64,000 bases of DNA from Coemansia sp. RSA 487 (Eukaryota > Kickxellomycota > Kickxellomycetes > Kickxellales > Kickxellaceae). Location of the stretch: positions 183,379 to 247,378 of the forward strand of contig JANBRJ010000015.1 of assembly GCA_027577595.1 (NCBI GenBank), in the 5' to 3' direction. The notes beneath the pieces are model-generated. The model had not been told where the DNA came from. It searched no databases and saw only the letters and a list, made by a program, of their open reading frames with translations. The position numbers and the translations under genes are program-made. Numbering within the stretch: the stretch's first letter is position 1; each line of letters opens with the position of its first letter. Shown in pieces: positions 38,216 to 63,052 of the stretch.

Positions 38216-38368
38216 TTAACTATTAGGGGTATTACCTGGGTTACTTCCAGTGGGTCTTCCTGTTCTATCGGTTGCTATTTGGCTTTTCCCAACTGGCTTT
38301 ATATTGTCGTTTTCTTGACCAGGTGGTTTCTCCCTATTCTCTCCTCCCTTATCTAGCCCCTTGCCCAT
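38216..38368 (-). CDS. Micro-ORF A, 50-residue hydrophilic Gly/Pro/Asn-rich protein (candidate)
   Basis: ATG at 38368, TAA at 38216-38218. The composition is far from random AT-rich DNA: 9 Gly, 6 Pro, 6 Asn and 5 Lys in 50 residues, with no Cys, Trp, Phe or Tyr. It contains NDNIKPVGKSQIATDRTGRP and ends in NPGNTPNS. The IATD tetrapeptide recurs in micro-ORF C, and an IKP followed by TGS recurs in micro-ORF B. No signal peptide or membrane segment. An upstream CATAAA-N10-TTGCCA element supports it as a gene. I do not recognise the product; by composition (Gly 18%, very hydrophilic) it would meet the hydrophilin definition. Chance ORF remains possible. Confidence 0.45.
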   Translation of the reverse strand: MGKGLDKGGENREKPPGQENDNIKPVGKSQIATDRTGRPTGSNPGNTPNS

Positions 38369-38521
38369 CTTGAAATACTATAAATCGAGATAAAATAGTA
38401 GGGAAAAACAAAAAATTGATGCTCAAAGCGTGAGTAGTGAAAAATGCAAAAACAGTTGATTGGCAGTTATTCAACGTAAGGAGGAAAACGAAAAATAAAA
38501 TAAAACAATTGAAGGTTCTTG

Positions 38522-38543
38522 TGGCAATTTTTAGCTTTTTATG
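38522..38543 (-). promoter_or_regulatory. TATA-like box plus TTGCCA upstream of micro-ORF A
   Basis: On the minus strand CATAAA (38543-38538) is followed after 10 nt by TTGCCA (38527-38522), 154 nt upstream of the ATG. The 16-nt start-to-start spacing equals that at micro-ORFs D and E. Confidence 0.4.
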
Positions 38544-39686
38544 AGAGCAGTGTAAATGACTGGGAAATTTTTACACTAGCGGAAAAGAATGCAGAATGGT
38601 GAGGATTTGGCCCGTTGACTGGAAGCAATATAATAGTGTTCATTAGGAAATAGCTAACCCGCTTTTGCACTTTTTTTATTTTCCTTTTTCCTTTTTGTGC
38701 AAATGCTTGGACAAAGAGGATTGGGTAAATAGTAAAAATAAGTGTCTCTGTCTTTTAGGAGCTATCCCTACATCAGCAGCACAGCCTTCCTCCCACTCTG
38801 ACATGTTTAAAAACTATACTTGGCTCTGATTCTTTGATAGCACTGCCTTGCCTGGAAGATTTCCAAGTTAAATGTATGATGATGGCCGCAAAAAGATGAC
38901 ATCGTATCCGAAAAAACATTAGAGATTCCATTTTTGCAAAATATAATATAGCTAAAGTCATATTCTTCATTGAATTCTCGACAAAAGAAAATAAAACGGG
39001 AGCAAAGCAGCAGTAGCAAAGAAGCAAATATCGGAAACATTTCGCACATCCATCAAAAATAAATGTTCACAGCCATATGTGGAAACGAAATTAATACACG
39101 GCAAACATACGCATGTGTTGACATTCTCTTCCTCTCCCCGCTTCCTCCAACAGGACAACTTGTTAGTTTCCCCTGAACCAGCTACAAGTCGGTGAATATC
39201 AAAAACAAATGGCCGCTTCCGAACTTTTGCAATCAAGCACGATTTTATTCGTATATTGCGGACGTATTTCTAGCCTATTCTATGCTTCCTCATCTGCTTT
39301 ACAATTTGAAACACTTCCGATAAGCTAATCTAGTCAGATAGAAGATATATTATTATGATACAGAGCTTGTCGTTTATAGCGCTATTTTATTTTTGTGCAA
39401 ACATATTTTTTATATTTATGATTACAATTATATTTCTGGAATACTATTGCTTAAGCTTGCAGTATATTAGAACGAGAATGCAAAAAACATACTACTAGAT
39501 TCAAATCGCAACATTTGTGGCAAACAAACATTACTAGCTGTTAACCATAACGTACCAGTTCAGCCTTGGCCCGATTAACGCTAATAAAAGCAAAAGAAGC
39601 TACTTCCATCAAAATGTTGCAAGCGGAAGTAACACATAGCCGCATTTAACTAGCCTGCTACGTTGTTTTCATAATTCCTGGGCGTG

Positions 39687-39809
39687 CTAACCTCTAGTCT
39701 CTCCGCTACTACCCGTGTTTAATTGGGTAGGCCCGTCAGTTGGTCTGATTGGTTTTATTTGCTTTACCGGTTGGTCTGGGTTATCGAAGTCCTTTTTAAG
39801 AATTGCCAT
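39687..39809 (-). CDS. Micro-ORF B, 40-residue hydrophilic protein (candidate)
   Basis: ATG at 39809, TAG at 39687-39689. 40 residues, rich in Pro, Gly, Thr and charged residues; the middle reads QPVKQIKPIRPTDGPTQL and the end GSSGETRG. No Cys or Trp, no signal peptide. Pattern similarity to micro-ORF A is weak but visible (IKP, then TGS near the end). An upstream ATATTT-N10-TTGCCA element and a T-rich leader resembling that of A (CTTCA … ATTGTTT … TATTTTTC) support expression. No known family recognised; chance ORF is the alternative. Confidence 0.42.
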   Translation of the reverse strand: MAILKKDFDNPDQPVKQIKPIRPTDGPTQLNTGSSGETRG

Positions 39810-39925
39810 CGTTACTTAAAAATGGAGTAAGTTTAAGGTTGTAAAATAAATGAAGCAAGTAGTTAGCTGCTTATCGTGAAAAATAAACAATGAGTGAAGA
39901 GTTGGTAAAATAGCTGCTGATGGTA

Positions 39926-39947
39926 TGGCAACGAAAAAGGGAAATAT
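39926..39947 (-). promoter_or_regulatory. TA-rich box plus TTGCCA upstream of micro-ORF B
   Basis: ATATTT (39947-39942) and TTGCCA (39931-39926) on the minus strand with 16-nt start-to-start spacing, followed by TTACCAACTCTT about 20 nt further on, a 12-mer also present downstream of the element at micro-ORF E. The box is a weaker TATA match than at D and E. Confidence 0.35.
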
Positions 39948-41125
39948 CAAAAGCCACGCGTGATTTTTTGGGGTTTATATGAACAAGAGATAAACGATGC
40001 TTTTTGGATTCCAAGTCTAGCTAGTAAACAGGCATTATCCATTGCATTGACTGAAGAGGCGGATATATTTGTCAATTTTCCTATTTATAATCCATATATA
40101 TACACGCATATATATTTGTATTCTATTTGTATCGCTATATATGCTAACATGGTTGTAGGAAGGTTCGAAAAATAAATAGAAATAACGGATTTCTTGTTGT
40201 AAGCAAAAACAACCACATGTTAACCTCGTGAGATCGATTTTCATTTCATTGCCGCACTAAGCTATCGTCTTTTTTGGAGCATGGACAAATTATATAATTG
40301 GTTTGCACAACGAATTAGGATATCAAGAAATGTTGCCATATAAAAAGACCAGAAATATGGAATGCTAAAAAAGGGGTGGCCTTTTTTTAGCTGGAAGCTA
40401 GGCTAAAGTTGTATCTTTCTTTTTTGGGGAGACGTGGACTTGCACCCCTCTAAAAGTAGAACGACATAGTGGACATAAAGAAAATGCATATGAAACAAAC
40501 GATAGGAGTGGTGCGATTCCTCATCTTGTAAATAAAAAAAAGCTAGCTGATGTATACGCCGAACGTAAGGGTTTCCTACATATGCTGTGTTTGGAAATAA
40601 ATGTGCGTAAATATAACTTTGGTCATAATATATAATGCAAGTAGCTGATGGCCGATACGCCTGCTCGTCTCAGCTTATTTCTTTATACATGAGACTGACA
40701 TATTTCCCTTCTAAAATTTAAATGCTATAGATATATGTATGGTTTTTATGAAAAGCCAGTTCCGCATCAAACACCTACACCTACATAGCGGACATGTTTC
40801 TATCTTTTCTATATATTTTAAATTATGTTCTACAAGCTCCCAGACTTGATGCTCACTGATTTCCATTTGCAATATTCTTTATTGTCACAATAGATACTGC
40901 TGCATCCAAACATGCAATCTAACTAGTGTTACGATTTGAACAGGCTTATTGATATGATATTGTCACAATATGGGTTAAATAAAACTAGAAACAGAACAAG
41001 TACATGGGATATAGCTTGCTACATGGCTAGTCGCTAAATGCAATCGATAAATGTGGCGAGAATCAGGGAGGCGTTTCAGCCTTCCCTCCAATCCTATACA
41101 TTGTGCTCTCTGGATTGTTAAACTA

Positions 41126-41251
41126 TTAGGTTTTCCCCCCCTTGGAATCTGTGGCAATGGTTGTACCGCCAGATGTTTGAGATTTAATACTCGCAGGGCT
41201 ATCTTTTGGATCCTTTTCATTGGATACCTGTGGTTGTGTACCTCTGGCCAT
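41126..41251 (-). CDS. Micro-ORF C, 41-residue hydrophilic protein (candidate)
   Basis: ATG at 41251, TAA at 41126-41128. 41 residues with Lys, Ser, Thr and Gly dominating, no aromatic residue and no Cys: MARGTQPQVSNEKDPKDSPA followed by a Ser/Thr/Gly-rich half ending DSKGGKT. It shares IATD with micro-ORF A at a similar distance from the C-terminus. A TATAAA box at 41407-41402 lies 151 nt upstream, with TTTCC in place of TTGCC at 14-nt spacing. Composition meets the hydrophilin-like pattern (Gly 12%). Unrecognised; chance ORF possible. Confidence 0.42.
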   Translation of the reverse strand: MARGTQPQVSNEKDPKDSPASIKSQTSGGTTIATDSKGGKT

Positions 41252-41388
41252 ATTCGAATATAGATGGGGGGATGTTAATTACCTTAAAGGCAGCGAGTAA
41301 TTGGATGCAGTTGGAAATATATGCAAATGGACAACAAGAAAAATGTTGATAATCTAGCGATGAATAAAATAGAAAAGCAAGAGGGGGA

Positions 41389-41407
41389 GGAAACTTTCAG
41401 TTTTATA
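41389..41407 (-). promoter_or_regulatory. TATAAA box upstream of micro-ORF C
   Basis: Perfect TATAAA (41407-41402) on the minus strand, then TTTCC at 41393-41389. This is only an approximate match to the TTGCC element of the other micro-ORFs. Confidence 0.35.
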
Positions 41408-41528
41408 TGGGGGATGGGGAAGTAAAAAAATCGTTGCTATTTACGAAAATTCAGTAGAAAATGGGCGGAAACTATCTAATCGGATATGCTTGTTGGCAAA
41501 GTGGCAAGTAAATCCTGTGGTTTATTGT

Positions 41529-41684
41529 CTTTTTTAAACCTTTGTGTGTCGTTGCAAGCGGAGAAAGGGAGGACTGTAAAGTGTGCAGGCAAAAAAGGAA
41601 TGTTTCCTTTTTTAAACCTTTGTGCGTCGTTGCAAGCGGAGAAAGGGAGGACTGTAAAGTGTGCAGGCAAAAAAGGAATGTTTC
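41529..41684. repeat. 78-bp direct tandem duplication (two copies)
   Basis: Copy 1 is 41529-41606 and copy 2 is 41607-41684. They differ at a single position (TTTGTGTGTCG versus TTTGTGCGTCG). A third copy starts (CTTTTT) but diverges at once. The unit length is a multiple of three, so the plus and minus frames stay open through both copies. I read those frames as a by-product and not as a gene. The near identity points to a recent duplication. Confidence 0.95.
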
Positions 41685-42351
41685 CTTTTTGAAATCGTTT
41701 GGGCACTGGCTGCCTCATTGTGTGTTTATGTTTATTCTGCACACACTCTGTTCTACAGAAACGACCGCTTCCGATGCATAACCTATTTCATAATAAAGCC
41801 AATAGTTTTTTTTATCGATATTACACAGCCATTGTAAGCTTGTTTCGAATCCCTGTTTAAAGAAAATACAAAGGTCTCTTTCATATCCATCCTTTTAACA
41901 TGGTGGCAATCTTTCTAGAGGCAATTGTGAAAGGGTTTGAATTTTTTAGCTGAAGTGGTAAAAAGGTGTTGTAAGCAGAAAGACACCCTCGCAAAGTAAA
42001 AATATCGTTTAGAAATACCACGTGAAATGGAAACGCACTTTGTTTCCACATGACAAACACGCAGATTTTGAGGAATGCGGGTTTCCACTGGTATTCCCAG
42101 TCATTAGCACATGTGAGCTAGGTCCTCTTTTTTTGAACTTTCCACGTCAACCAGATAAACACCTACCTGGAAAATACACCGGGATATTAGCGATTATATA
42201 GATTAGTCTCCAAAATAAAAAACAAAACAGGAACAAACTGCACATCATTCAATTCAAACGCTTGAATTTATACACCATCTACATACGTATCTCGCATTAA
42301 GAATAGCAGAATCGTAAGAACAGTATTCTATAGTGTCAGGAGGCTATAGTG

Positions 42352-42855
42352 TCAAGTAAATCCTCTACGAAACGAACCAAGACCCAGCCTACTAGACTCG
42401 TTAGGAGGCTTGGCCAGCTTCTTGGCCTCATTGACGGCCCTGGAGATTTCGGTTAGATTGACTTCTGACACCATACCGGCCGTAACGATTTCGGACAAGA
42501 TGTAATGAACTTGGTCAAAGTTGAAAATAACATCGAGCTCCGATACGTTTTCGAACGCCCTGTCCAGTGCCTCAACAAACACTTGAATCAGATCGTAGAT
42601 ACCCAGTTCGCTTTCCGATTGGTCGACAACAAATACAAAAAACAACGTTGCGTAGCGCCGGTAAATAATGCGATGCCCGGTGCCTACCACCGACTGACTA
42701 CCGTCTACGAATTTGCACAGGTTGTCGGGTCTCTTGGATATGACGCCGTATATGTCACGGAATATGGCTTGCTGTGTGGCGGTATCTATTTCCTCGTAGA
42801 ACTTTAGTAACCGCGGCTTGCCGAGCTGGTTGAATATCATAACCGAGTGAATCAT
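42352..42855 (-). CDS. APS3: AP-3 adaptor complex sigma subunit
   Basis: 167 residues, one exon. The whole protein is a clathrin-adaptor small chain: MIHSVMIFNQLGKPRLLKFY at the start, YRRYATLFFVFVVDQSESEL in the middle, then LDLIQVFVEALDR-type (here YDLIQVFVEALDRAFENVSE) and IFNFDQVHYILSEIV. Phe-Asn-Phe-Asp-Gln-Val-His and the GMVSEVN ending are closer to sigma-3 (GMVLETN) than to sigma-1 or sigma-2. AP-3 carries cargo from Golgi/endosome to the vacuole. Two to three residues around HRIIYRR vary from metazoan sigma-3. Identification is secure at family level and good at sigma-3 level. Confidence 0.92.
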   Translation of the reverse strand: MIHSVMIFNQLGKPRLLKFYEEIDTATQQAIFRDIYGVISKRPDNLCKFVDGSQSVVGTGHRIIYRRYATLFFVFVVDQSESELGIYDLIQVFVEALDRAFENVSELDVIFNFDQVHYILSEIVTAGMVSEVNLTEISRAVNEAKKLAKPPNESSRLGLGSFRRGFT

Positions 42856-43510
42856 TGCTGCTGTTTAATGTATATACGGGCGTTTCTAACGAGGTGGGAG
42901 AGAGGGAGGTGGGATAGTACAGAGGTTTGATTTGGGGCAGTTGTTGGTGAGGGACAGCGTATAACCGCCGGAAAAAGATCGAATTATGGAGTTGGTTGAT
43001 GGCTGAAGGGGAGGAATGGGGTGGCATCACGTGGAATGAAGAAGAAAGTTGTTTACGATAAAAAAAATGCGATTACTGCACGAGAGGCGGAGCTTTATTC
43101 TTGAAAGGCCAAAACAAGAAACGGGGGACAGGGTACAAGAGATGCAAGTTCATAACGGGGATTGCGTGCGACACAGATTGACCAAAAGTGCTTCAGAGTG
43201 TTATTATTTTTTGTTTCGATTGTACCCTATATGCAGTTTAAAGAAAAGCGCAGATGCCAAAAAAGTAAATACAAAGAGCGCTCAATCACTGGCTTTCTCT
43301 TCCTTTTTTTCTTTCTTTTTTTCTTTCGGTTTACAAATCAGTCTTGTTATTTTTCTCTCAGCTATTTCGAAAAGTTTATTTTTCTATCTACGCGTTTATT
43401 TATATTCAGTACATTGGCAAGCCACCAAGTTTTCTAAAAAGACAAGCAATTAGCAACAGCAGGTTTTTTTTCTTTGCTTATACAAAGAATAATTAGAGAC
43501 AAGAGCGGGA
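42856..43510. other. Divergent intergenic AP-3 sigma / spindle-pole gene
   Basis: 655 bp. The right half is T-rich (CTTTTTTTCTTTC around 43300-43330), typical of a fungal promoter. No gene seen. Confidence 0.5.
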
Positions 43511-46500
43511 ATGAGCAGAGCCAGCAGAGCCAGCACAGCTAGAGCCAGCGAACGCATGTCTGTAGCATCGTCCAGCGCAGGCGCCAGAGACATGGACAAC
43601 CAGGCGACAGAGGAGCTGACGGGGTTTCAGTGGGACGAAGGCACCGGGGCGATGCAGGAATTTGCAGGAACTGACGCGCTCTCTGAGATCGGAGGCGTGG
43701 TGTCGCAAGTGGAGGCCAATATGGATTTTACCACCAACTTGGACACGGCCATGGAGGGTGTGCAAAAGCGTCAGCTACCTCCAGAGAAGCCTCGTGGCGC
43801 ATATGCAAACTTTGACGACATATCAATGTCCCGCTTTGCGGATAGCTACTGGAAGGTTTCGGACGATGCGGCGGGAGAAGTCAGTGACCTTGGACTTGAG
43901 GCAATGGTAAGTTTCGAGGTTTTCTTGTGCCAAGAGCAAATAACCGTTTAATGAATGAGGGATGTGCCCTTTATTGTCACTTGCTTGGTTCTTACAGACA
44001 CAATCGATCTTGTTTTTTTTGCGGATTGTTTATCTATGCTTTGATATGTAGGAGTTTTCGACGCAGACCGCTGAGACGACCAATGGAAACCAAGTAAGGG
44101 CCGACGGTCCCAGCAGCAGTAGTCATTTGGAGTTGCCTGGAAACCGGGGCTCTGCAGTACTAGATGGAAGCGCAGAAAATGACGACTCGTTTCTGGCGCG
44201 TGCGACCGATGCACTTCGTGTTGGATCGCGAGCAAGCAGCCGCCACACAGCGCAACAGCGACCCGGCAGCCAACACTCGGCTGTCAGCTATCGAGAAACA
44301 GCAGCCCAACCAACATACGCTCCACGATCGGTGGCAACAACACCGGGCGTTAGTGACGCTGACAACGAAGAAGATGACGAGGAAGAGGAGAACCAGCGGT
44401 TGCCTACGTTCAGCTCACCGCGCCAGAATGCAACAGCAGTGCGACCTCCTCCTGCTCTCAACATGATGCCGTCGATGATGTCGATCGATTTGACACGGCC
44501 GCCGCTCCTAGCAGCTGACTCGGCAAGCACCGTCAACGATGGAGCTGAAAACAGGTATGCGCGTTTGGTGGCTCGGTACTCTGGGGCGCCGCTCCAGCAG
44601 CGGCTGCATCCGACGGCTACCGGACGAATCATGGCAGACCATCTGGCCGATGACTTGAGCTCCGAGGCACTGTCGCTGGACGCATTGCCTGACACGCCAG
44701 GAATGAATGCAACGGCCGGATTCAGCAGCGACCAAATGTCGCCTGGCTCGTCTCCAGGAATGAAAGATCGCGCAGGAGAGCGCGTCATCAACAACGCGCC
44801 ACGCCAACCCGTTGGTTTCTCGCCCAGAAGGGACCATTTGCATCGGGAGCCATCCAAGTTCGGTGCAAAGTCCTCCTCGTACTATGATGCGGCAGATAAC
44901 GACTCGTTTGAGTCGCTTGAGCATCCGAATATGGGCAGCCAGGGGTCGCCGCCACCGCCACAGCTTCCCCAGACTGTGCGATCCATGGGGTCCCTTATGG
45001 ACCATGGATACTACGACAACGAGCAGCGCGATGCATTCGACCTGGGTGTGCTTAGCGAGGACGACACCGACGAGTTCGGCGATGGGCGTATCAACAGCTT
45101 TGGCGGCACCGGCACCCTTCCGCGCATCGACGACGCGTTCCGGTCCATTGCAGATGCAGACGACATGTTTGGCGACCGGCGAACGAGCAGCGACCCCGAT
45201 ATGTCGTCTATAATAAGGGACCACGAGCGCGTATTCAATGATCTGTTCGATAGCGACGGCCCCACCGAGGATCTGGATGGGATGCAGCCCCCGGACTCCT
45301 TATTCGCATCCAGTACCTCAATCGCTGCGGAGCTCAGCCGCCGGCGCCAGCAACGACAAAGGCAACAGCAGCAGCAGCATCAGCAGCAACAGCAACCCCA
45401 GCAACAAAACAGCCAGCGCGTATCGACATGGGATGGGAGAGAAGCCACAGCTGATGCGTTGCTGCTACAGGAGGCCCAGTTCAGCAGTGTGCATCGCAAC
45501 CCAATCGAGATGCTGGAGAAAACCAACAGCCTGGGCATGGCAACAGAGGACGACAGCGATGTCAGTGGATTGTTACCAGAGTCAGCCATATCGCCTGCAT
45601 CGGTCGGACGACCCATGCATCACCAGCATCAGACAGGGGCGCAGGATGATGATAGTGTTGCGGCGGCCCGTGCGCCTCCTTCGCGCATTCGCAGCAACAC
45701 GGGGATGCAGCCGTTCACTGGGCTGTTGCGCCAGCGTAGGCAGCGCGAGCAGATGCAGATCGCCACGGGGCTGGTGGGCGGGATGCCAACCACGCCGCAG
45801 TCGGCTCCTCCGGGCGGCCCATTCGCTGCACACGAGGCGCCACCGCCAACAACGCCTACCACGTTCATTATGCGCGACACGCGGCACCGTCCAGCATCAC
45901 GCGTCCTGCGCCAAGTCTCGCCACTCAACGACGAATTCAGCGATGGGCCCAGCAACCCACCACCCCCACAACGGGCAAATGGGCTTGGGCTGCTACGGCT
46001 CCCCCGCTCAATGGCCAAGCGACCCGCGGGTCCCCGCGCACCACCCGTTGATTACTCGCAGAAACAACGCGTGCCGAGCAACAACACGGATGCTACGAGT
46101 TCGGTGGGGCTCGGTTCGCTGCTCCACGACTCGTCGATGGTGCCAGCCGAGTTGACCCGCACGTCATTTGCAACCACAATGGCCACAACTCCACGGAACC
46201 TGCCATTCAGCCGCAAAATCAATGGAGATTCGCCCATGTCTGCAGCGTCGAACAACACGACGGCCCATTACGTGCCGTTCCAAGAGCCCACAGTCGATGT
46301 CTCGCGGCTTCCGGATTACCGTGACATTGGTGTTGGCCACATTGCTATGGGGTCTGGCGGCAAGAAGCCGGGCGCAAGTCCGCTATTCGCGCAAGCCAAT
46401 GTGCATTCTAGTCTGTCGCCTAGCGTTGGATCCGACACTGTTCCAACTACAGCAACCAACGAGCCGGCCCAGAATGGCCCATCGCTCCGTGATATCTATG

Positions 46501-48617: not shown

Positions 48618-49163
48618 ATGCAATGCATGCCCTTCTTGCTTTCTGCTGACACGATGGTGCATATGCCATCTTTGATCTTTCCCCACGTGAACATGTTCTG
48701 CTTTGTTCTTTGGGTATAGCCAATCAGAGATCCTGAGCATGGAGTGGATTTTTTTTTTCTTTTTTGTGTTTGGTGCTTTTCCATTTTTTTCGATTCTGTT
48801 CGAGAAAACCTTTAAAAGGGGCTGCTGCCCTTTTTCCTCCGCCTGACTCATCTTTTTTCTTTAAATAAATCACTTTTTTTGCTTTTCTCCCCACTTTTTT
48901 TTCGCGTAGCTTTGAAATTCGTTTCTAGATCGAATCCAAATCCTCACACTTTTCCACTTTAAATTCTTGGTGCCTTTCTTTTACACACAAGAAAGCCGAA
49001 AAAGACAAACATTCTAAAGCTGGCTAACATACTAGTGCTCTTTCTCTTTTCCTCAGCCTCACTGTTTTCCAAACCATCAAAAGCCAAATCGGTTTAACAC
49101 CACACCCCTTTTAAAAAAACTCCCCCGACTTTTTTTTTCTTTCTTTCGCAGACTTTTTGGACA
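48618..49163. other. Intergenic spindle-pole gene / antizyme
   Basis: About 545 bp, with a pyrimidine-rich leader (C and T runs, 48840-49150) right before the antizyme ATG. No gene seen. Confidence 0.5.
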
Positions 49164-50253
49164 ATGTTAATGTTTAGCACCAGTAGTAGTAGTATGTCAA
49201 GTACTGGCTCCAATGGCAGTGGCAGCGGTACTATCATTGGATCCGAGGGTAGTTCATCCGAAGATGTGCAACCGAATAGTCTCTACGGCGGCAGCGCCGT
49301 TGCTACAGAGGATGACGGAGTGACCGTGTCTCTGCGCAGTGAGCTGTCGCCGATGATGGACGAGCTCGAGGAAGATAGCTCGTTGCTGATCAACGGCCCC
49401 ATTGCTGCTAAATGCGTGGTCGAGCGCTCCTCGTCGCGTAGGCGTGAAAACTACTACTTTATGATGGGTAAGAAGTCTGGGTGGTGCGTTTGACGGCCCT
49501 TCAGTCCAGCAGCATTCGGGAGGGCCCAACGGTGGTGGCAGCACCGTTGGGACATTGAGCCAAGGGGAGGAAAGCGAGTGCGACTCTTCCTCGTTCTTTG
49601 GCTACGGTTCTAGGTCCAGGTACCCACCACCACCCTTTGTGGCTAGAACCACTGCTCCAGCGTCGACCCAAACTACCCCGATGACGGTCATGAGGCGCGG
49701 AAGCAGCACAAGCAGCAGCGTGGTGTCAGTCAGCAGCAGCAGCAGCAGCAGCGATGGGAGCGACACTGATGCACCAGTAGCTCCTTCTTTGCTCCCTCGT
49801 AGCCGCCATAGCTCTCGTGCGGCTGCGCTGAGGTCGGCTGCAGACTTACAGAGAGAGATTTTCCCGCATGGCGTGGCGTCGCAGGGAGTCATGAAGTCCG
49901 GGCAGCAGTGTATTGCAGCCGACGTCAAGTTCTCTGCATACGGCAAGGATATGTGGCATGGGTTTATCATTGACGATGTTCTGTACATGTACGCGTCTGG
50001 CTTTAGTGGCACTGACCGCGACTTCCGCATTGCGGTCACTGCGCTGGTGGAGCTGGCCGAAGACACGCTGGGTTGCTTCTCTGTGCTCGTTGCGCTGCCC
50101 AAAGTTCTTCATGGTTCTTTGCAGCAGTGCTTGGATCCGGTGACCGCTGCAAGCCTTGTGCGTGCCTTTATGTACTCAGGCTTCGAACTGGTTTCTCCCT
50201 TGCTCTACCAGCCTAGCGCTTCGTATATCCTTGTCGGCTACGACACTATGTAA
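49164..50253 (+). CDS. OAZ: Ornithine decarboxylase antizyme, expressed by programmed +1 frameshift (49164..49490 then 49492..50250, stop 50251..50253)
   Basis: Antizyme binds ornithine decarboxylase, sends it to the 26S proteasome without ubiquitin and lowers polyamine uptake. ORF1 (109 codons, ATG 49164) stops at TGA 49491-49493. Skipping one base there joins it to a frame with no ATG that carries the antizyme domain: GKDMWHGFIIDDVLYMYAS, LVELAEDTLGCFSVLVALPK, and the C-terminal ending FELVSPLLYQPSASYILVGY. The total is 362 residues. Polyamines would promote the shift, as in all studied antizymes. The N-terminal part is Ser/Gly-rich and the middle carries a long Ser run. It is convergent with U1-C (101 bp apart). 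The frame assignment is direct from sequence, and the domain match is strong. Confidence 0.95.
49482..49493 (+). promoter_or_regulatory. +1 ribosomal frameshift site TGG-TGC-GTT-TGA
   Basis: The last ORF1 codons are TGG TGC GTT and the stop TGA at 49491-49493. Mammalian antizyme mRNA has UGG UGC UCC UGA at the same place. The shift would read GUU, skip U and decode GAC, entering the antizyme frame. GUU replaces the more common UCC as the P-site codon. Confidence 0.85.
49495..49551 (+). promoter_or_regulatory. Predicted 3' frameshift stimulator: two stacked stem-loops
   Basis: One nt after the UGA, GGCCCT (49495-49500) can pair perfectly with AGGGCC (49521-49526), with a 20-nt loop. Directly next to it CCCAACGGTG (49525-49534) pairs perfectly with CACCGTTGGG (49542-49551), with a 7-nt loop GTGGCAG. 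The two stems share 2 nt, so one loses up to two pairs. The placement and adjacency resemble the 3' stimulators of other antizyme genes, but the exact fold was not computed. Confidence 0.65.
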
Positions 50254-50354
50254 GGCGTGTGTGCTTTGTTTTTTCTTTTTAAACTTTTGGAGGGTAGCTT
50301 TTTTCGCCCTTTCTTATATTGCATACTATAAATTGAATCTTTTGCTACTATACA

Positions 50355-50870: not shown

Positions 50871-51160
50871 TTCTCTCCTTGCTTATCGGTTTTGCTTTAT
50901 TGTAGAATGAATGAATTAATGAATGAGTAAATAAAATGGCACCTTTTTTTTACTTGCGGCTCCAAAATTAGCGAGTTTGTGGTTCTAGCATTTGCAGCTG
51001 TTTGATTGGGACCTGGCTATGGGAAGCTGGTCATGTGCTTGATATTTAAAAAAAAAGGCAAAGGATCCTCAGAGAATAGCAGTGATTTGTAAAGATGTTA
51101 TTTCATCAATGAAAGATATAAAAAGTAGGGTTGGATGGGAGGAGGGGAATTCGAAACTCT

Positions 51161-53423: not shown

Positions 53424-56204
53424 ATGACTTCCTTCCAAGACCTGCTCGGCGGCGGGCAAGACACCAACACCAACACCGACGCTAATGACACATCCAACTC
53501 CATCAAGACATTCGTATCCTCAGTATGCATCAACATCGCCATTGCTCTCTTACTTTTCCTTGCATTCTGCATCCTGCGACCGCGGTTTCGGCGCGTGTAT
53601 GCACCACGCACATATGCAGTCGAGAAGGCGCGACGGTCCGAGCCAGTAGGAACCGGGCTGTTTTCGTGGATCCCCGCAGCGCTCCGCGTGCCGGACCGCG
53701 AGATAATCAAGCGTGTCGGCCTGGACACGTACATGTTTCTGCGCACCATCCGCACAATGTTCATCATGTTTCTTGCTATAAGCGTGCTGTCGGCAGGCAC
53801 CATGCTGCCGGTCAATATACTGGGCACGAAGGGCCAGACCGGGCTAAACGCTCTGTCGATGGGTAACGTGGACGAAAAGAGCCCGTGGCTGTGGGTGCAC
53901 GTGGGCTTCTTTGCGATTTCGGTCCTCTGGACGCTGCGGTGCATTGTAGGCGAGCTCCGGATCTATACGCAGCTCCGTATGTGGTGGCTCACGCACCCGG
54001 AGAACGCAGCCAAGGCCGGGGCGTCGACCATTCTGGTTTCGCACGTGCCCGAAACGCTGACCCGCAAGGAGCACAGGCTGCGCGAGCTATTTGACGAGTT
54101 CCCAGGCGGCGTGCGGCAGGTGTTTGTCAACAGGTCGTCCAAGGAGCTGGCAGCCAGCGTCAAGAAGCGCGACAAGCTGGCCAAGAAGCTCGAGAAAACA
54201 CTGACCGCCTATGCGGTGCAATGCACCAAAGCATTCGAGAGAGCCGCAGAGCACAGACAAGAGTATGTGCAGCCGCCACGCCCCATGCTGCGCAAGAAGC
54301 TTCTGGGCGTGGTGCCGTGTGTGGGCACAAAGGTTGAGGCCATCGAGTACTATGCGTCGGAGATGGCCATGTGCAACCACTTTATCGCGCAAAGCAGCAA
54401 GGATCTGGACCACTTCGTGAGGGAGCCGTCGGCGCTAGTGATGTTCAACAAGCCCGTGGCTGCGCACATGGCGGCGCAGACGGTGCTCGACTATCGGCCG
54501 TTCTCAATGAGCCACGTGTCGGTGGATGTGCACCCAGACGACATCCTGTGGAGCAACCTGAAGATGAGCCCTTGGGACAAGCGCATCCGTGGCTACGTGT
54601 CGTTCATTATCACTGTAGGCCTGACGGCGGTCTGGACCCTGATAACGGCGTTCCTCAGCGGTCTCGTGCAGGTGAAGAACCTGGCGCAGCTGAAGGCATT
54701 TTCGTGGCTGCAGGGCAATGCGTGGGCGTTTGGCGTGTTCAGCGGCATCGTGCCGTCGGCGGTGCTGGCGTTGCTGATGCTGGTGCTGCCGTCGGTGTTG
54801 CGGCTGCTGCTGCGGTTGGAAGGCACGCCCCGGCGGAGCCTGATCAACCTGAGGCTGCTGCACCGGCTGTACTTTTTCCAGGTGTGGAACGTGTACCTGG
54901 TGACGATCTTCTCGTCATCGATTCTGGTGATTGTGGCGAACTCGATCGACAAGCCAGACAATATCATCAGTCTCCTGCAAACGCAGGTTCCGCAGTCCGC
55001 CACCAACATCCTGACGTACGTGGTGCTGCTTGCCTTCATTGGCGCCGCCAAGGAGATCACCCAGGGCGTGCGCCTGGCTGTCCGGTACCTTGTGCCGCTT
55101 CTTTTTGCCAAGACGCCGCGTGCGCTGTACAAGGCGGAGCTGCCCAAGGCGTTCGACTGGGGCGAGCAGATCCCCACGCACTCGCTGGTGTTTCTGATGG
55201 GCTTCTCGTACTCGCTAATTGCACCCATCGTCGCTTGGTTCGTCATGGTGTACTTTGGACTGTTCTACGTGATCTACAGGTACCAGTTCCTGTACGTGTA
55301 CAACGACAAGCATTGGGTCACCGGCGGCCTGTCGTTCCCCAAGGCTGTCAAGCAGATGCTCGTGGCTGTGTACATCTCCGAGGTCTACATGGTGCTGATG
55401 ATGGTGTCAAAGCTCACCGGCAACGTCAGCTCCATTCTGCGCATCGCTGTGTCAGCGGCTGTGCTTGCGCTGACGATTGTTGTCCACCTGTACATCAACG
55501 ACGTGTACATGCCTTCTATCAACTACCTGCCTGTGAAGAAGGCGAAGGACGTCGAGCGCAATCCGCGCCGAGCCACCGATTTCCCAGACGTCATGGGCGG
55601 ATACCACAGGAAGGGACAGAGGGACTCGGGGGCCCGCGAATCGGACCCGCTGGCAGCAGAGAAGGGCAGGGCGCGCAACCACATATACGCGATGTACAGC
55701 TCCCTTGTCCCAGTGTGCATAATCGACCTGTTCCTATGGATGTTCCCCTGCGCACTGCAGCCAAAGAGCCACCAGCCCAGCACTAACAATACCAATGGCT
55801 GGGATCTGCCTGATGTCGAAGAAGGAATAAAAGAGACACGTGGATTCGCTTGCAACCCGCAGATGTCCCAGCGGCGGTCGCGGATCAGCAGCATGGTTGA
55901 CAGGCGGCCCCAGGCTTCCATGGCTGACAACGAGCTGGCGTGCGAGTTCTCAAACCCAGCGGTCCGCGCCAAGCCTGTTTGCAACCTGTGGGTGCCGCTG
56001 GCAAACGCCCGCCTGTTTGCGCGGCTCCTGTGGGAAGTCGAGTACTACGGCCAAGGAACGATTCTTGTCATCACCCACGGCACGTGGATCGACCAGAAGA
56101 GCCTCAAGGTCAAAGCCGATTTGGATTTCGTCATTGAAGATCATGAAGTCTCGGACAAGACCGAGCTGGTCCAGGCGCAGCAAAGCAGACCGCATCACTC
56201 GTAG
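53424..56204 (+). CDS. CSC1/RSN1 (DUF221, TMEM63/OSCA) mechanosensitive cation channel
   Basis: 926 residues in one exon. The first helix (CINIAIALLLFLAFCILRPR), then MLPVNILG and the second/third helices match the RSN1_TM region. A cytosolic domain of ~200 residues starts at RKEHRLRELFDEFPGG (PHM7_cyt, RNA-recognition-like fold). Seven further helices follow, with typical RSN1_7TM motifs: LPSVLRLLLRLEG then VPQSATNILTYVVLLAF, and VYFGLFYVIYRYQFLYVYND. These proteins open in response to membrane tension or hyperosmotic shock. The C-terminal tail includes another conserved patch (FANPAVRAKPVCNLWVP-like, here EFSNPAVRAKPVCNLWVPLA) seen in fungal members. Highly GC-rich codon use. Identification is secure at family level; ion selectivity is unknown. 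Confidence 0.95.
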   Translation: MTSFQDLLGGGQDTNTNTDANDTSNSIKTFVSSVCINIAIALLLFLAFCILRPRFRRVYAPRTYAVEKARRSEPVGTGLFSWIPAALRVPDREIIKRVGLDTYMFLRTIRTMFIMFLAISVLSAGTMLPVNILGTKGQTGLNALSMGNVDEKSPWLWVHVGFFAISVLWTLRCIVGELRIYTQLRMWWLTHPENAAKAGASTILVSHVPETLTRKEHRLRELFDEFPGGVRQVFVNRSSKELAASVKKRDKLAKKLEKTLTAYAVQCTKAFERAAEHRQEYVQPPRPMLRKKLLGVVPCVGTKVEAIEYYASEMAMCNHFIAQSSKDLDHFVREPSALVMFNKPVAAHMAAQTVLDYRPFSMSHVSVDVHPDDILWSNLKMSPWDKRIRGYVSFIITVGLTAVWTLITAFLSGLVQVKNLAQLKAFSWLQGNAWAFGVFSGIVPSAVLALLMLVLPSVLRLLLRLEGTPRRSLINLRLLHRLYFFQVWNVYLVTIFSSSILVIVANSIDKPDNIISLLQTQVPQSATNILTYVVLLAFIGAAKEITQGVRLAVRYLVPLLFAKTPRALYKAELPKAFDWGEQIPTHSLVFLMGFSYSLIAPIVAWFVMVYFGLFYVIYRYQFLYVYNDKHWVTGGLSFPKAVKQMLVAVYISEVYMVLMMVSKLTGNVSSILRIAVSAAVLALTIVVHLYINDVYMPSINYLPVKKAKDVERNPRRATDFPDVMGGYHRKGQRDSGARESDPLAAEKGRARNHIYAMYSSLVPVCIIDLFLWMFPCALQPKSHQPSTNNTNGWDLPDVEEGIKETRGFACNPQMSQRRSRISSMVDRRPQASMADNELACEFSNPAVRAKPVCNLWVPLANARLFARLLWEVEYYGQGTILVITHGTWIDQKSLKVKADLDFVIEDHEVSDKTELVQAQQSRPHHS

Positions 56205-56318
56205 CTGCTCTGAGAAAAAGGGCGGCTATTAATTAAACTTTATACTTTATATACTTGTTTTTATGGATATGAAAAAAAAAGGAAATATGAAAGCTATAGC
56301 TTTTGTATAAAAGCTCGC

Positions 56319-59120
56319 TTACTTCTTGGTCTTCTTGGTCTTTCTTGCTGGCTTTCTGGCCGTGGAAGCAGCCAGGTCGTATCCTCCCGCCTGCTGAGCA
56401 CCAAGGAAGCTGGCAGGATTGCTTGGATCTTCAACACGCATATCAACATCAACATCAGCATCAGCATCAGCATCAGCATCAGCGTCAGCATCCGCCAGCC
56501 CGCCACTGCTGGTGCTGGCACTTGAGGAGTACATGGTGTCGCTAGTAGCAGGCATTGCGTGTCCGCTGCGGATCTTGAGGTTGCGCAGCGCATTGAACAG
56601 GGCGTTGCTCTGCGGTCTGTAGCGCGGGGTGCCGACCTCCGAGATAAACACAGGAATGGGTCCCGGCGTGGTGGCAGGCGAGTGCGACGGAGTACCATCG
56701 ATTTTCCAATTAGCCTTCCTGAAGAACACGTCAGGCGGGGTCAGCGTGCCCAGCGCACGGCGCATATGCGAAGTTAAATAAGTCAGGCCCACCTGGTACG
56801 AGGCGTTCATCCAGCCAAAGCCCTCACGGACAACCTTCTTGAAGTCAGAGCCTACGTTTCCGTACTCCACATCGAACCGGTGCGTCATGTTGACCACATC
56901 GAACTTCTCAGGCACGCAGCCGTTGAAGTCGACAAAGGCTTGCGTGATAGTGAACAGCCAGCGATACGCGAATCGCCGTGCAACATCGACAAACCCATAG
57001 TTGTACAGCCCGTACCATGCCATGATCTGATGCGGCGCCCATCCGAACGGGAAATCCCACTGCCGGTTAGGCCGTTGCAGCGAGATCTTCCCTCGCGACT
57101 CCTCGGTTCCGCTGACCAGCCCACCGCTGACCTCAAACTTGCGGCACCCGATCTCGACAAGCCTCCGTGCCTGCGCCGGCGTTGCACACCCGGCCCACAG
57201 CGCCCAAAGCGAAGTGACGGTCTCGTACACGGATTGTTCACCCAGAGAAACATCGTAGTCAAAGTACAGACCCTTTTGTTCATTCCACATGTACTTGTTG
57301 ATGCTCAGGCGGCGGGTCTCCGAGCGCACACGCCATTCGGCAGCCGTCATCTCGCGGCCACCAGTCCACTCGAATTGACCGCCAAAGTGCTCATCCAGAG
57401 TATCGGCAATATCGACCTCGTATTTGTACAAAAGGCAGTTAAGGTCGATGGTAGCCAAGTTGGCGCACCTGCGCTCAAGCCTATACGACGTATCGTGGCC
57501 CGACTCGCGCACTGCACGGTCGTGCACGAAGAATTCGTCGAGCTCGGGTTCGTTGATTTCGTCGCTGCTGTACATTTTCTTGTACTCTTCAACGGACACG
57601 CCGAGCCGCTTGGCGAATGGTTCGACGATGTGGTCGAAATGCGTGCTCTCCGTCTCCGGCGGCATTCCTATCCCCGTGGTATGGTAGCAGCTCAAGCCTG
57701 TTTTACGATCAAACCGCGGCTCGCTGGTCCATACATCCATGTACTCTGTGATTGCGGCATCAAAGGATTTGCGCAACCATTCGTGGTTTCTTGCCTTCTC
57801 ATCTTCTGTGTTTGCCGGAAGCGCCTCAAACACTTTGAGAATCATGTCGGTCAAAAAGGGTGGCTGCGATCGAGTCAGGTAGTATGATCTGTTGGCGTTG
57901 AGGATCTTTCCGTAGTGCTTGATTTCGTATACAAAGTTGTCAATCATGTTCTTTCCCAGCTGGTACCTTCCATCGACAAGCAAGCCAAGGGCTTCGAAGT
58001 AGCTGTCCCATCCGTATTGCTCGTTGAACCGGCCACCGGGGACAACAAAGGGCAAGGGGCGGTACACCAACCCACCGTTGGCGTCATACGAGACGTCAGC
58101 AGCCAGCGATAGCACACCAAACTTCTCGTTGATCGAGTTGACGTACCGCGGAGTGATGTCCTGCGGTAGCTTGACGACCTTGATGCTCAGCTGGCTCAGG
58201 TCGCGTGCCATCTTTGTGTAGTATTCAAACGCAGGGTGATCATCAAAGGGCACATAAATGATAGGGCTTGCTCCGGGTTTGGCGTTCTTCGGATCAGCGC
58301 ATATTGCCTGGATCCCGGATTCATCCATGCACCGCACAAGTCCGTTCCAGAACACCGTGCGAATCATCCGCGAAAGCCGGTCGACGGGGTTCTCGTTCAG
58401 CCGTTCCTCGTCTATCACCACCTGGTTCATTCCATAATCGCGAGCCAACGCCATTTCTTGCAGTAGGTTGGACAACATGTATGTGCCACGGACCTCGAAT
58501 GTACGGAACCCTCCGCTGCTCTCCGTAGGCACTTTGAGTACCTTGGGGCCTGAATCCTCCACCGTGATTTGGAAATCCTTGTTCGAATCCTCTTGGTCAA
58601 GGAGTGCCTTTTCTATCACGTCAATGTCTACCAGGAACCGTCTTGGGTGCACTGACCTGACGTCTAACGATCCGCGACGGCGTAAAGTGCGGTTCCGCGC
58701 TCTCCCGCTGCCATTGTTTTCGCTGCCGCTGGTGCTGCTGCTGGTGCTGTCATCGTCGTTTTCCTCGGCATGCGGGATGTACTGCTGGTACGCTCTCTAT
58801 TTTGGACAAGAAGAATGGAAATAAAAGTTAGTTATTTTTCTTTCCTTTTGTTGCTAAAAATAGGCCCTTTCTAACGGAAATGCCACAAAGAAGAATGTGG
58901 GGACGCTCTTTTGTGCGGGAGCAGTAAGCAAACAATAATTCCTGGAGCTAGACTGTGCGCACGGGCCATCGTCTAAATTTAAAAGTCAAAATTAAGGATA
59001 GGTTACCTGGTATGAACGGGAACGGGACCTGCCTACGGCTACCGACTTTAGGGCAGCTGATCCGCTGTAATACTCTTTAGGTGGGGCGTGCACATCAACC
59101 TTTGGGACTGTGTTAGCCAT
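56319..59120 (-). CDS. NTH1: Neutral (cytosolic) trehalase, GH37, two exons
   Basis: Join on the minus strand: 59120..59007, 58796..56319; 863 residues. The 210-nt intron (GTAACC…TAG) is phase 0 and supplies the start MANTVPKVDVHAPPKEYYSG. The regulatory head has RRGS (Ser81), a PKA/14-3-3 site, and a calcium-binding EF-like loop (about 105-119, LDQEDSNKDFQITVEDSGPK), as in fungal Nth1. Trehalase signatures are PGGRFNEQYGWDSYF (about 290) and QWDFPFGWAPHQ (about 616). The enzyme hydrolyses trehalose to glucose on release from stress or dormancy. The C-terminus is extended beyond usual Nth1: an (Asp-Ala)n run and a basic tail ending RKTKKTKK. Confidence 0.95.
56442..56493. repeat. (GCATCA)n minisatellite coding for an (Asp-Ala)n run in trehalase
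   Basis: About eight ATCAGC/ATCAAC-type hexamer units in tandem. On the gene strand they encode alternating Asp-Ala then Asp-Val, near the trehalase C-terminus. The reading frame stays open because the unit is 6 nt. Length variation would change the acidic run only. Confidence 0.9.
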
Positions 59121-61483
59121 GGTATTAAAGCCCAGAAGAATTGGGGGGAGTGGTGGGTGGAGATCGAATGTTTGCAAGCTGTTGAGGAAAACGCTAGGCG
59201 ACCCAAAGTCGGTGGATTTATATAGTACTGAAAGTCTGGTTAACCAAAGTATAAATCACGTATTGTATAAAGAATGGGAAGTGAGGATAAATGAAATATT
59301 GAAGTATATTTAGGTCAGGAAACTGAAAGTGGAAAGCCAAAAAAAAGATTTATTTTTGTGTACCGACAGAAGGAAGAAAAGACAGAAAAGAAGAAAAAAG
59401 TAAAACGGGAAGGCTTTCAGGTTGTCTTGCGGAATATTTATAAGCTTATACCCAACTATGACGAATTTTGTTTGCTTTGATTCAGTTTTTGCCTGTTTAT
59501 TTTGAAAGCGCACCCAACCAACAAAAAATAAATTGCAACGTCGATTTTTCCCCAGTTGAGAGGAGATCAGCAAATGAGAATGCACCCTCCAACAAAATTT
59601 CATGTCTGATGCAGGCGGCGCACGAGTGTGACGGATATTGCTGGCCACGCTACATCACAAGCATTTGCAAGAAAAAAAATCCCAGGCAAAAGACAGTAAC
59701 GAAAATTTTCCTTCTGGCCCATGTGGAGGAAGAAAATGATGGAGGAGAATAAACATACTTTTTCCAATCGGATATGAGTCACTCGGGCGATCTGTTGCGC
59801 AAGCCTTCAGACCTGTGCCATGCACGTGCAGGGCGCCTCTTGTTTTCTTTTGTTCCTCGCTTTGCACAGCAGTAGCACTTTTTTCTTCCCTAAACACGGT
59901 CTGACACGGAGAAATAAGTGGTATCCTCTCAGCAAGAGTGGCTTTACTACTTTGCTCTTTTTTGAAAGACAAGGCTCTCAGAACACGTTCTTTTTACAAT
60001 AAAACGTTATTGTTCATGTGGTGCGACGTGGCCGTTTTCTTCAAGAGACATTCAGATATAAAAAATGTCGCCGCTTTGGCCAGCTTTTGTGTACTGCATT
60101 CACACGGTTATTGTTTGTGCTGCCCATGCACGCTTTGGCACAGTATCCGAAATGATTTGAAATTGCGCCTCTCATTGTTGAAGCGGGAATTTTTCGTCTT
60201 TTTGCTTCTTTTTCTCCGACTTTTATTGTACAGTTCAATTTCAGCGACATCAATTCTGCAACCACAAATACAACCTGCTTTCTTGCCCGTTTTTCTGTAT
60301 CCGATTAACCACGTAATGCAGAAATCCCTTACTAGAAAAAGCATCATACATCTACCATCCACCACTTTGTTTTCTCATGTTCATCATACGAGTGATCCCA
60401 CTAACAATATATGTACCAACTGATCTAATCATCATGTGTCATGTATCTAATCATAACCAAATAAACAGATCGCCTTATTCCTCTTTCTTTTCATGACAAT
60501 CCGCAAATTGTAAAAATAAATAAAAACATGAGCATGCTTCCGACATTGCATAGATATCCGTTCATTCATGTATCCCAAGCGCATCTGCATTGTATACACT
60601 GCATGCGCCCTGCCTGCATCATGTTCTGTTTATTGTTATTTATGCCGGTTTACCATCATTCACATGCAGGACATGCTCAACTGTTTATCGAATGCTCAAT
60701 GAAAAATAAAGTGGAAAGGAACGTGCTTTTGGATGATGCTGGTGATAATAATAATTTATGTGCAGCAACGAAAAATTCTGGATTATTATCACACTTGCAA
60801 TCTTAATATAGCTCACTTCTTGGCAAATATTTAATTATTTGCTCCTGATTTCGAAGAGTGAAAGTTTTTGCAGATTAATATTAGCTCCAATCATCGAATA
60901 GAATCAATGATAATGCCCAGCAGCAAACTAAAGTCGCAGATATAAAAAAAAGTTCAAAAACACGTAATAAAGTTTATAAATAAATACAATCGTCACAAGC
61001 ACTTCGCCTTGTTGAAAGGTTGAATAAAGCTTGTGACTATTTAAGAAACTGGCTTTGTCCTTTTATTTATTGAGGAATTGCAGTTTAATCACGCCGTACA
61101 CCTCTTTCACCAGGTGCTTTCTGTTTAGTTCTGTAGCATATTATTAATTCATACGCGCTAAACATGCCATACATTTACAAAACAAAAGCTGGACATTCAA
61201 AAACCCTTATGCTGCTTTCCAGACAATATACGACCAGCAGAAATACTTGCTCTAGTAAATAAATATCAATCCTTCCGATTCGGAAAATATAATTATAAAA
61301 GGTGTCACCAGCATACATAATATATTTAAAGAAAAGCTTTCTGATTTGTACTTCAATTTGGGCGGGCAAGGGAGCAAAAGCGGCTGATTAAATATAGAAC
61401 ACAAGTGCATTTGCCAATTTAATATGATTGCATATATAAATACATTTTGAAGCTGTGTTTGAATGAGACATGTTTGGCAGAAA
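59121..61483. other. Gene-poor AT-rich region right of trehalase
   Basis: About 2.4 kb. It begins with the trehalase promoter (a TATATAA box near 59216 on the minus strand). Frames at 59468-59752, 59938-60423 and 60528-60806 have no recognisable motif, and their codon use looks random. No RNA gene seen. Confidence 0.5.
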
Positions 61484-61506
61484 TATAAATGAAGACATAT
61501 TGCCCA
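61484..61506 (+). promoter_or_regulatory. TATAAA-N10-TTGCCCA upstream of micro-ORF D
   Basis: TATAAA (61484-61489) and TTGCCCA (61500-61506), 16 nt start to start, 115 nt upstream of the ATG. The same words at the same spacing stand before micro-ORF E. A later CATCATTTA is also shared with E. Confidence 0.5.
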
Positions 61507-61620
61507 TTTTCCACTTTTCCATTTCATTCTTTATCATCATTTATTTCTACTTTCAGCTCTTTTGTTCTCAGACATACGGATTAGCATCAACATAGGCACA
61601 AAACAATAATAAAATTTACC

Positions 61621-61749
61621 ATGGCCAGCAGAATCAAAGAGCTGGACTATAATCCAAATGATGAAAAGTATTTAAGCCTTGTGGGCATCGTTAGTAGAGT
61701 TATTAGTGCTAGAAGAGGCCCTAACAAATCTTTTTCAGCAAAAGAGTAA
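61621..61749 (+). CDS. Micro-ORF D, 42-residue protein (candidate)
   Basis: ATG at 61621 in a good context (TTTACCATGG), TAA at 61747-61749. The protein starts MASRIKELDYNPNDEKYLSL, has a short aliphatic middle (VGIVSRVISARR) and ends FSAKE. The upstream TATAAA-N10-TTGCCCA element and the identical length to micro-ORF E (42 residues) support it. No known domain recognised. It may also be the first exon of a larger gene or a chance ORF. Confidence 0.45.
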   Translation: MASRIKELDYNPNDEKYLSLVGIVSRVISARRGPNKSFSAKE

Positions 61750-62055
61750 AGATAGAGCCTTATCTACTGGTTTGGCAAGATTTTTGTCTTCCAATTGTTG
61801 CATTATGTGACGGATTTGCCATGGACCCAGGATAAAATAACACAGAGTAATTATTCGATATCTTGTTCCTCAAACTAGATATAAGAAGAAAAATCCTTGC
61901 CTTCCCCCGAAGACAATGACCCACGGGAAACGCTGCTCTTATATGTAATAGGGGGCCATTACATGTAGTGAACTATTTCATTGTTAGCGCTTAGTGGCTG
62001 TGCAAACCCATTGTCATGGGTTTTCCTTGCATACGACACTCACACTAGCGTGACA

Positions 62056-62570
62056 CATTATCAAAAACAACACAAAATTTCTAAAAGATGGTGTAGAAAA
62101 GTTTGCCTTCTCAAATGGTATTGTAAATCTGAATTTTTCTATTTGAGAGATGCCATTGATTCAATTGGCCATTTTATTGACAAAGGGTTGATGCCTAGTC
62201 AGTTGGTGGCCGGTGCAAGAAAAATTTCCAAAGCACAAACATATACCTTTAGCAATTAACCAAATTTTATCATTTTATATTATTTTGGCCCCAATAAATA
62301 CCTTTATTCATGATTTAATGCCAGAAATTTTGTTACAAATAAAAGTCTTGACGGAACTAAAGTTCCTTGTCTTTATTTTTCATAAAAACTGGCTTTTGTA
62401 GCCATAAAAACACTACAACAATTAAACTTGGGATTGTGACTCAGCTTGCGAATTGCAAGCTGATTATTATCACAAACTTGCACTTTCTTAAATTTATCCA
62501 CAGCATACACTCAAAAATCTTTAGGCTTCAGGCAGCACTGCATGGCAAAGTGCAACTAACAAAGTAGTGT
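62056..62570 (+). pseudogene. Possible decayed coding remnant, family not recognised
   Basis: Three overlapping plus-strand frames in succession read like pieces of one protein broken by frameshifts: RKVCLLKWYCKSEFFYLRDA then IGHFIDKGLMPSQLV (frame starting at 61981), then FIHDLMPEILLQIKVLTELK (frame at 62213), then KLGIVTQLANCKLIIITNLH (frame at 62367). The last two have a leucine-rich look. No domain could be named and there is no intact start. Chance frames in AT-rich DNA are a real alternative. Confidence 0.25.
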
Positions 62571-62682
62571 ACCCTTGTGAATACACCAAAGCTGAAAATC
62601 CAGAAATGGGAATTTATATTTTGGGAACATTTTTTTTATCTGCGCAGGCGCTCATTTCTAAATACAAAATTATATTTTGTAT

Positions 62683-62723
62683 AAATATATATGTGTATAT
62701 ATATACATATATATATATATATA
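62683..62723. repeat. (TA)n dinucleotide microsatellite
   Basis: An alternating TA tract with a few GT/CA interruptions, able to form cruciforms. It lies 80 bp upstream of the micro-ORF E TATA box. Confidence 0.9.
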
Positions 62724-62804
62724 ATTGGTAGAGGAATGGGAAACAATTCCCTAATTTAAATATCTTGCAGAGTATTAGCTTAACTGGGTCTGGCTAGCAA
62801 ATAA

Positions 62805-62827
62805 TATAAAAGGAATATTGTTGCCCA
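62805..62827 (+). promoter_or_regulatory. TATAAA-N10-TTGCCCA upstream of micro-ORF E
   Basis: TATAAA (62805-62810) and TTGCCCA (62821-62827), 16 nt start to start. Further on, TTACCAACTCTT (62848 region) matches a 12-mer upstream of micro-ORF B, and CATCATTTA matches one upstream of micro-ORF D. Confidence 0.5.
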
Positions 62828-62923
62828 CTTTTTTTAAGCAAACATATTACCAACTCTTATTTATCCTTCCCATTATTTTCATCATTTACAAAAGGTAATA
62901 TCATAATTGCAAATAATTAAAAA

Positions 62924-63052
62924 ATGCCCAATACCGGTCCGATTGAGCAGAACTATACTCTAGCAGAGGCAAGTGCCCAAAGCCTTGATGCAGCAATCAA
63001 TACTAGGGATAATGGCAATAAGCGCCGTACTCCTGCGCTAAAAAAGAAATAA
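62924..63052 (+). CDS. Micro-ORF E, 42-residue hydrophilic basic-tailed protein (candidate)
   Basis: ATG at 62924, TAA at 63050-63052. It begins MPNTGPIEQNYTLAEASAQS and ends in a basic tail (NKRRTPALKKK), with no Cys or Trp and no membrane segment. Same length as micro-ORF D. The TATAAA-N10-TTGCCCA element is 97-119 nt upstream. It lies between the two inverted repeats. No known family; the basic tail could be a nuclear targeting signal, which is speculation. Chance ORF possible. Confidence 0.45.
   Translation: MPNTGPIEQNYTLAEASAQSLDAAINTRDNGNKRRTPALKKK

Follow-up and report, generated by a model that had tools for sequence, protein, structure and literature searches.

Five putative micro-protein genes behind TATA boxes in AT-rich, gene-poor DNA of a Coemansia contig

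In fungi, 1986 conserved small open reading frames (sORFs, at most 80 residues) have been defined by their conservation among 31 fungal genomes, as reported in the accessible part of PMC7394265. Two other described systems lie close: hydrophilins, which the available text of PMC11277543 defines by a glycine content above 6% and a hydrophilicity index above 1.0, and fungal orphan or de novo genes (PMC12684174, as far as its accessible text describes them). Here, five open reading frames (ORFs), designated A–E, were analysed in a 64,000-nucleotide (nt) stretch of contig JANBRJ010000015.1 of Coemansia sp. RSA 487, referred to below as the window. Like the conserved fungal sORFs, A–E are small (40–50 codons, within the limit of 80 codons used for fungal small ORFs), lie between genes and would likely be lost in standard annotation; the former, however, are conserved across genomes, whereas A–E are known from one window and no protein-level conservation is seen between D and E. 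With orphan and de novo genes, A–E have in common their shortness and the lack of a recognised family or of visible codon adaptation, but they are arranged in two local groups, not as single loci. On balance, the sequence favours the reading that A–E are real fungal genes for small proteins, each transcribed individually from its own TATA box, and such genes would probably be young. The ORFs and their upstream boxes are as follows (box positions are relative to the ATG; GRAVY, grand average of hydropathy).

38216–38368, minus strand: micro-ORF A, 50 codons, starting at the first ATG past the TATA-like box; glycine 18.0%, GRAVY −1.59
39687–39809, minus strand: micro-ORF B, 40 codons; glycine 10.0%, GRAVY −1.04
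41126–41251, minus strand: micro-ORF C, 41 codons; glycine 12.2%, GRAVY −1.15
61621–61749, plus strand: micro-ORF D, 42 codons; glycine 4.8%, GRAVY −0.60
62924–63052, plus strand: micro-ORF E, 42 codons; glycine 4.8%, GRAVY −1.09
38538–38543, minus strand: TATA-like box of A (CATAAA) at −175, with TTGCC 16 nt downstream
39974–39979, minus strand: TATA box of B (TATAAA) at −170, with TTGCC 48 nt downstream
41402–41407, minus strand: TATA box of C (TATAAA) at −156, with TTTCC 14 nt downstream
61484–61504, plus strand: TATAAA-N10-TTGCC of D, with the TATA box at −137
62805–62825, plus strand: TATAAA-N10-TTGCC of E, with the TATA box at −119

The initial annotation of this DNA, which proposed a family of tiny, individually promoted genes, described the ORFs themselves accurately. 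Each runs from an ATG to a stop codon; Phe, Tyr, Trp and Cys are absent from A and C, and B has a single Phe; the short words IATD and IKP are common to A and C and to A and B, respectively. The ATG-to-ATG spacings of A, B and C are 1441 and 1442 nt, a regularity that was not treated as proof. The feature common to all five is a TATA or TATA-like box 119–175 nt ahead of the ATG.

Two reference sets were used for comparison: 101 ORFs of at least 35 codons (longest ATG per stop) in 22,152 nt taken as intergenic, and, for ranking, the 76 ORFs of at least 30 codons in the two large AT-rich blocks. Length by itself proves nothing, since chance ORFs of 40–50 codons are common in these blocks: 49 of the 76 reach 40 codons, and ORFs of at least 35 codons are in modest excess (59 observed against 44.0 ± 5.8 in local shuffles). 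Such counts favour the explanation that A–E are chance ORFs, five of about 100 picked by eye, with promoter-like words found later, as do the failure of the annotated promoter element at B and C and a 12-mer common to B and E that is not significant across pairs (see below). We nevertheless regard chance as improbable, because a number of features single out these five ORFs and the homology between D and E lies far past decoys.

The four most hydrophilic of the 101 intergenic ORFs are A, C, E and B. A TATAAA or CATAAAA between −185 and −100 precedes ten of the 101, and A–E make up five of these ten. Within the ten the division is sharp: A–E have GRAVY values of −1.59 to −0.60 and an A at −3 in every case, and the other five have GRAVY values of +0.12 to +1.41 and an A at −3 in none. 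This split is independent of the choice of window for the box. When a GRAVY below −0.9, at most 8% aromatic residues plus Cys, and the TATA box were combined in the two blocks, four ORFs passed (A, B, C and E; D is excluded by the GRAVY limit), a count reached by none of 200 local dinucleotide shuffles (mean 0.04); the shuffle figures are optimistic because the TATA window, like the thresholds, was fixed once A–E were known. A further hydrophilic ORF of 56 codons (33753–33923, minus strand), with an A at −3 and an ATG-free region to −100, passes two-feature filters and has no TATA box; we take it to resemble the first exon of the Sey1-like gene next to it.

The leaders and start codons provide additional evidence. 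With the leader counted from 30 nt past the start of the TATA box (an offset of our choosing) up to the ATG, the five leaders, 607 nt in total, contain no ATG against 4.38 expected, and zero was obtained in 11 of 2000 dinucleotide shuffles; the TATA box of D itself runs into an ATG, ahead of the scored leader. An A at −3 is present in 5/5 of A–E and in 23/87 other ORFs (p 0.002), a G at +4 in 4/5 and 17/87 (p 0.009), and an ATG-free region to −100 in 5/5 and 13/87 (p 0.0002). In the fungi covered by the accessible text of PMC7049704, start codons in strongly translated genes or in those for ribosomal proteins tend to have a purine or an A at −3, and enrichment after the AUG is weak; the G at +4 is therefore given less weight. 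The find of the initial annotation is probably real, on grounds stronger than those it offered: individually promoted genes are indicated by the A at −3, the ATG-free leaders and the TATA/hydrophilic split, and the promoter element on which it relied was overstated. Just upstream of D, at 60941–61262 (plus strand), lies a weaker sixth candidate, a 32-codon ORF at 61164 with TATAAA at 60941 and 60975, an A at −3 and a leader that is ATG-free from 30 nt past the box.

D and E are clearly related as DNA. In a blind nhmmer search of 88 AT-rich 1-kb windows against the whole window, with reversed decoys, five windows over D or E recovered the partner at E-values of 2.8e-5 to 1.1e-4, compared with 0.23 for the best decoy, and two more matched it at 0.0079 and 0.11. 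The similarity starts just ahead of the TATA box and ends about 55 nt beyond the stop, as follows.

61458–61806, plus strand: D stretch homologous to E (promoter, leader, ORF and about 55 nt beyond the stop)
62778–63104, plus strand: E stretch homologous to D

On this alignment D and E are clear DNA paralogues, derived from a duplication. The TATAAA-N10-TTGCC element lies inside the best-conserved part (24/34 positions identical, against 24/55 directly upstream), and the best ungapped stretch across the ORFs has 27/43 identical positions with the frame kept. Apart from this homology, an unrelated pair (61751 and, on the opposite strand, 63924) matched at an nhmmer E-value of 0.027. ORF E is also flanked by a perfect 15-nt inverted repeat, CACACTAGCGTGACA (62041–62055 and 63926–63940), whose longer match has an nhmmer E-value of 0.027; a second nearby pair is not collinear with it.

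The initial annotation attributed to all five ORFs a TATA-N10-TTGCC element with 16-nt start-to-start spacing. It is exact at D and E (TATAAA-N10-TTGCCCA), which carry the only two exact TATAAA-N10-TTGCC sites among the 70 TATAAA sites on both strands of the 64 kb, and has one mismatch at A (CATAAA-N10-TTGCCA). It does not hold at B or C: the ATATTT assigned to B does not count as a TATA variant, and the true TATAAA of B stands at −170 and aligns with the CATAAA of A and the TATAAA of C, and the spacing from TATAAA to TTTCC at C is 14 nt rather than 16. With at most one mismatch, six sites were found against 1.69 expected, and none of 100 shuffles reached six, an excess to be read with the paralogy of D and E and with three of the six sites lying away from A–E. 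The element is absent from the TATA-bearing promoters of the ordinary window genes listed, and it is best seen as a piece of promoter that D and E inherited and that A may share. The words reported as shared are present, TTACCAACTCTT in B and E and CATCATTTA in D and E; across the clusters the 12-mer is not significant (19/1500 shuffles for the B/E pair, 128/1500 for any of the six pairs between A–C and D–E). The TATA layout itself occurs in ordinary genes: TATAAA stands at −174 to −68 of four of the 14 gene starts checked (UNC-93-like, RSN1/CSC1-like, trehalase and alpha/beta hydrolase), and a fifth start has it at −191 and −9; a few of the 14 belong to uncertain gene models.

A–C are probably related proteins that arose by local duplication, as comparison of the peptides with composition-matched shuffles hints (joint p 0.0020, 0.0077 and 0.0023 under three alignment settings; pairwise p 0.015–0.11). 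At the DNA level, the B/C and B/A nhmmer matches fall in the right strand and register. Ranked against 365–366 AT-rich background windows, B/C and D/E stand at 1–2, A/B at 2 and 6, and A/C at 17 and 34; sequence composition is common to these ranks, and they were not treated as proof. The proposed single family resolves into two groups, the D/E paralogues and the more weakly linked A–C proteins; no test joins them, with joint p values of 0.26 to 0.90 for the A–C against the D–E peptides. A direct tandem duplication of 78 bp (99% identical, 41529–41694) is located about 280–440 nt upstream of the start of ORF C.

A number of results, in addition to the selection of the ORFs after the sequence had been read and the thresholds fixed afterwards, weigh against reading A–E as protein genes, or against the kinship proposed within their groups. 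Among A–C, the DNA matches are mostly at decoy level (nhmmer E-values 0.04–0.36 between B and C and 0.24 from B to A), a query with A recovers neither B nor C, and phmmer gives only 6 to 9.5. A k-mer offset scan has no clear peak near 1.44 kb, with bins at 1360–1600 mildly raised (z 1.0–2.5, within the listed top ten bins of each setting); the strongest bin, 3800–3840 (z 4.8–5.8), was rejected as a repeat unit, as it consists at k = 8 of only a few short separate words. The D and E peptides show no similarity (p 0.73 to 0.81), and six-frame protein look-ups in the window do not link them. In their best ungapped stretch, codon position 2 is the least conserved (10, 6 and 10 of 14 codons at positions 1, 2 and 3), and the true frame ties with frame +1 by BLOSUM62 (4 against 4). 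Conservation between D and E is 0.50, 0.58 and 0.41 in the ORF, 0.55 and 0.63 in the leader and 0.71 in the promoter. With the all-gene table, synonymous codon use in A–E does not rise above the local null; with the AT-rich table it falls between −0.12 and +0.08 bits. Of the six frames, frame 0 scores highest in four of the five ORFs by the AT-rich table (for A by 0.01 only; C is the exception) and in just two, D and E, by the all-gene table. Finally, a TATA-preceded ORF outside the set, at 63426, is likewise ATG-free in its leader (to −100), and AUG-dense leaders are possible in other fungi, according to the available text of PMC7049704.

The weak protein conservation and codon signal would suit genes that are young, relaxed or rapidly changing, and equally a transcript with an incidental ORF. 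The latter would make the loci short polyadenylated non-coding transcripts, with real promoters and non-functional peptides, an explanation favoured by a promoter better conserved than an ORF that is no better than its leader, by the least-conserved position 2 in unrelated D and E proteins and by codon use that is not gene-like. It leaves the ATG-free leaders and the A at −3 in 5/5 unaccounted for, as well as the hydrophilic composition that sets A–E apart from all five remaining TATA-preceded ORFs; moreover, the loci carry no RNA-structure signal (fold z-scores −1.04 to +1.39), and no Rfam family was found anywhere in the window at gathering thresholds. We consider such non-coding transcripts unlikely, though more likely than the other alternatives. 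Overall coding-likeness is consistent with small protein genes: among the 76 block ORFs, E, B, D, A and C rank 1, 2, 5, 7 and 20 when an AT-rich gene table is set against block trinucleotides, and E, B, A, C and D rank 2, 5, 11, 13 and 19 with the all-gene table.

A–E might instead be first exons of longer spliced genes, or remnants of decayed ones. The ORF at 33753–33923 illustrates how some of these features can also arise in a hydrophilic first exon; the D/E similarity continues for about 55 nt past the stops, and some 2 kb beyond A there is a same-strand ORF of 30 codons with a positive coding score (36175–36267, 0.124 per codon). However, a search covering same-strand ORFs of at least 30 codons in the first 1 kb downstream found none that scores as coding: the best of the 17 rows listed reaches 0.003 per codon by the AT-rich table, and all are negative by the all-gene table. 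We hold this explanation to be very improbable.

The hydrophilicity index, here equated with the negative of GRAVY, exceeds 1.0 in A (1.59), B (1.04), C (1.15) and E (1.09) and not in D (0.60). Glycine exceeds 6% in A, B and C (18.0, 10.0 and 12.2%) and not in D and E (4.8% each). The description of the products as hydrophilin-like can accordingly be kept, by composition, for A, B and C, which lie within both limits; it fails for D and E on glycine and for D also on hydrophilicity. A Pfam search with the five proteins gave no match up to an E-value of 10, a further difference from hydrophilins. Precursors of CaaX-type mating pheromones, which end in a C-terminal CaaX, were ruled out by the C-termini of A–E (TPNS, ETRG, GGKT, SAKE and LKKK).

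If A–E are small protein genes, RNA polymerase II would transcribe each of them from its own TATA box, about 120–175 nt ahead of the start. The leaders, which are mostly pyrimidine-rich and lack upstream AUGs, would lead to translation from the first AUG, with its A at −3. The two local groups would have formed by duplication, as seen at the DNA level for D/E and probably likewise for A–C. The products would be 40–50 residues long, mostly strongly hydrophilic, probably disordered and slightly basic, and either fast-evolving or young. The likeliest activity would be that of small hydrophilin-like protectants under stress or in spores, above all for A–C.

The window looks fungal from its protein set: a trehalase with a neutral-trehalase Ca-binding domain, Sey1/RHD3, an UNC-93-like transporter, a clathrin-adaptor small chain, an RSN1/CSC1-like channel, a U1 zinc-finger protein, ornithine decarboxylase (ODC) antizyme and a phosphatidylinositol transfer protein. 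The antizyme gene (49164–50253, plus strand) has a layout that fits a programmed +1 frameshift: its first ORF (49164–49493, 109 codons) terminates at GTT TGA C, and the +1 frame is open from 49492 for 253 codons up to the stop at 50251–50253 and matches Pfam ODC_AZ (1.8e-6). As a control, the clathrin-adaptor small chain of the window has no relative among viral contigs, so negatives there are uninformative. A literature search surfaced nothing on the A–E loci, and wider absence from print is not claimed.

A more general picture, offered as speculation that we think rather unlikely, is that AT-rich, gene-poor islands in this lineage of fungi hold lineage-specific arrays of fast-evolving, disordered micro-proteins; local duplication would have expanded them, keeping the promoter and leaving the peptide free to vary, and a TATA-N10-TTGCC core promoter would mark at least one subfamily. 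If A–E are genes, length cut-offs would miss them, and the combination of TATA box, ATG-free leader, start context and composition contrast is a cheap search for more. The D/E pair, with its better-conserved promoter and diverged peptide, would then make it testable whether selection acts on the sequence of such proteins, on their bulk composition or on neither.

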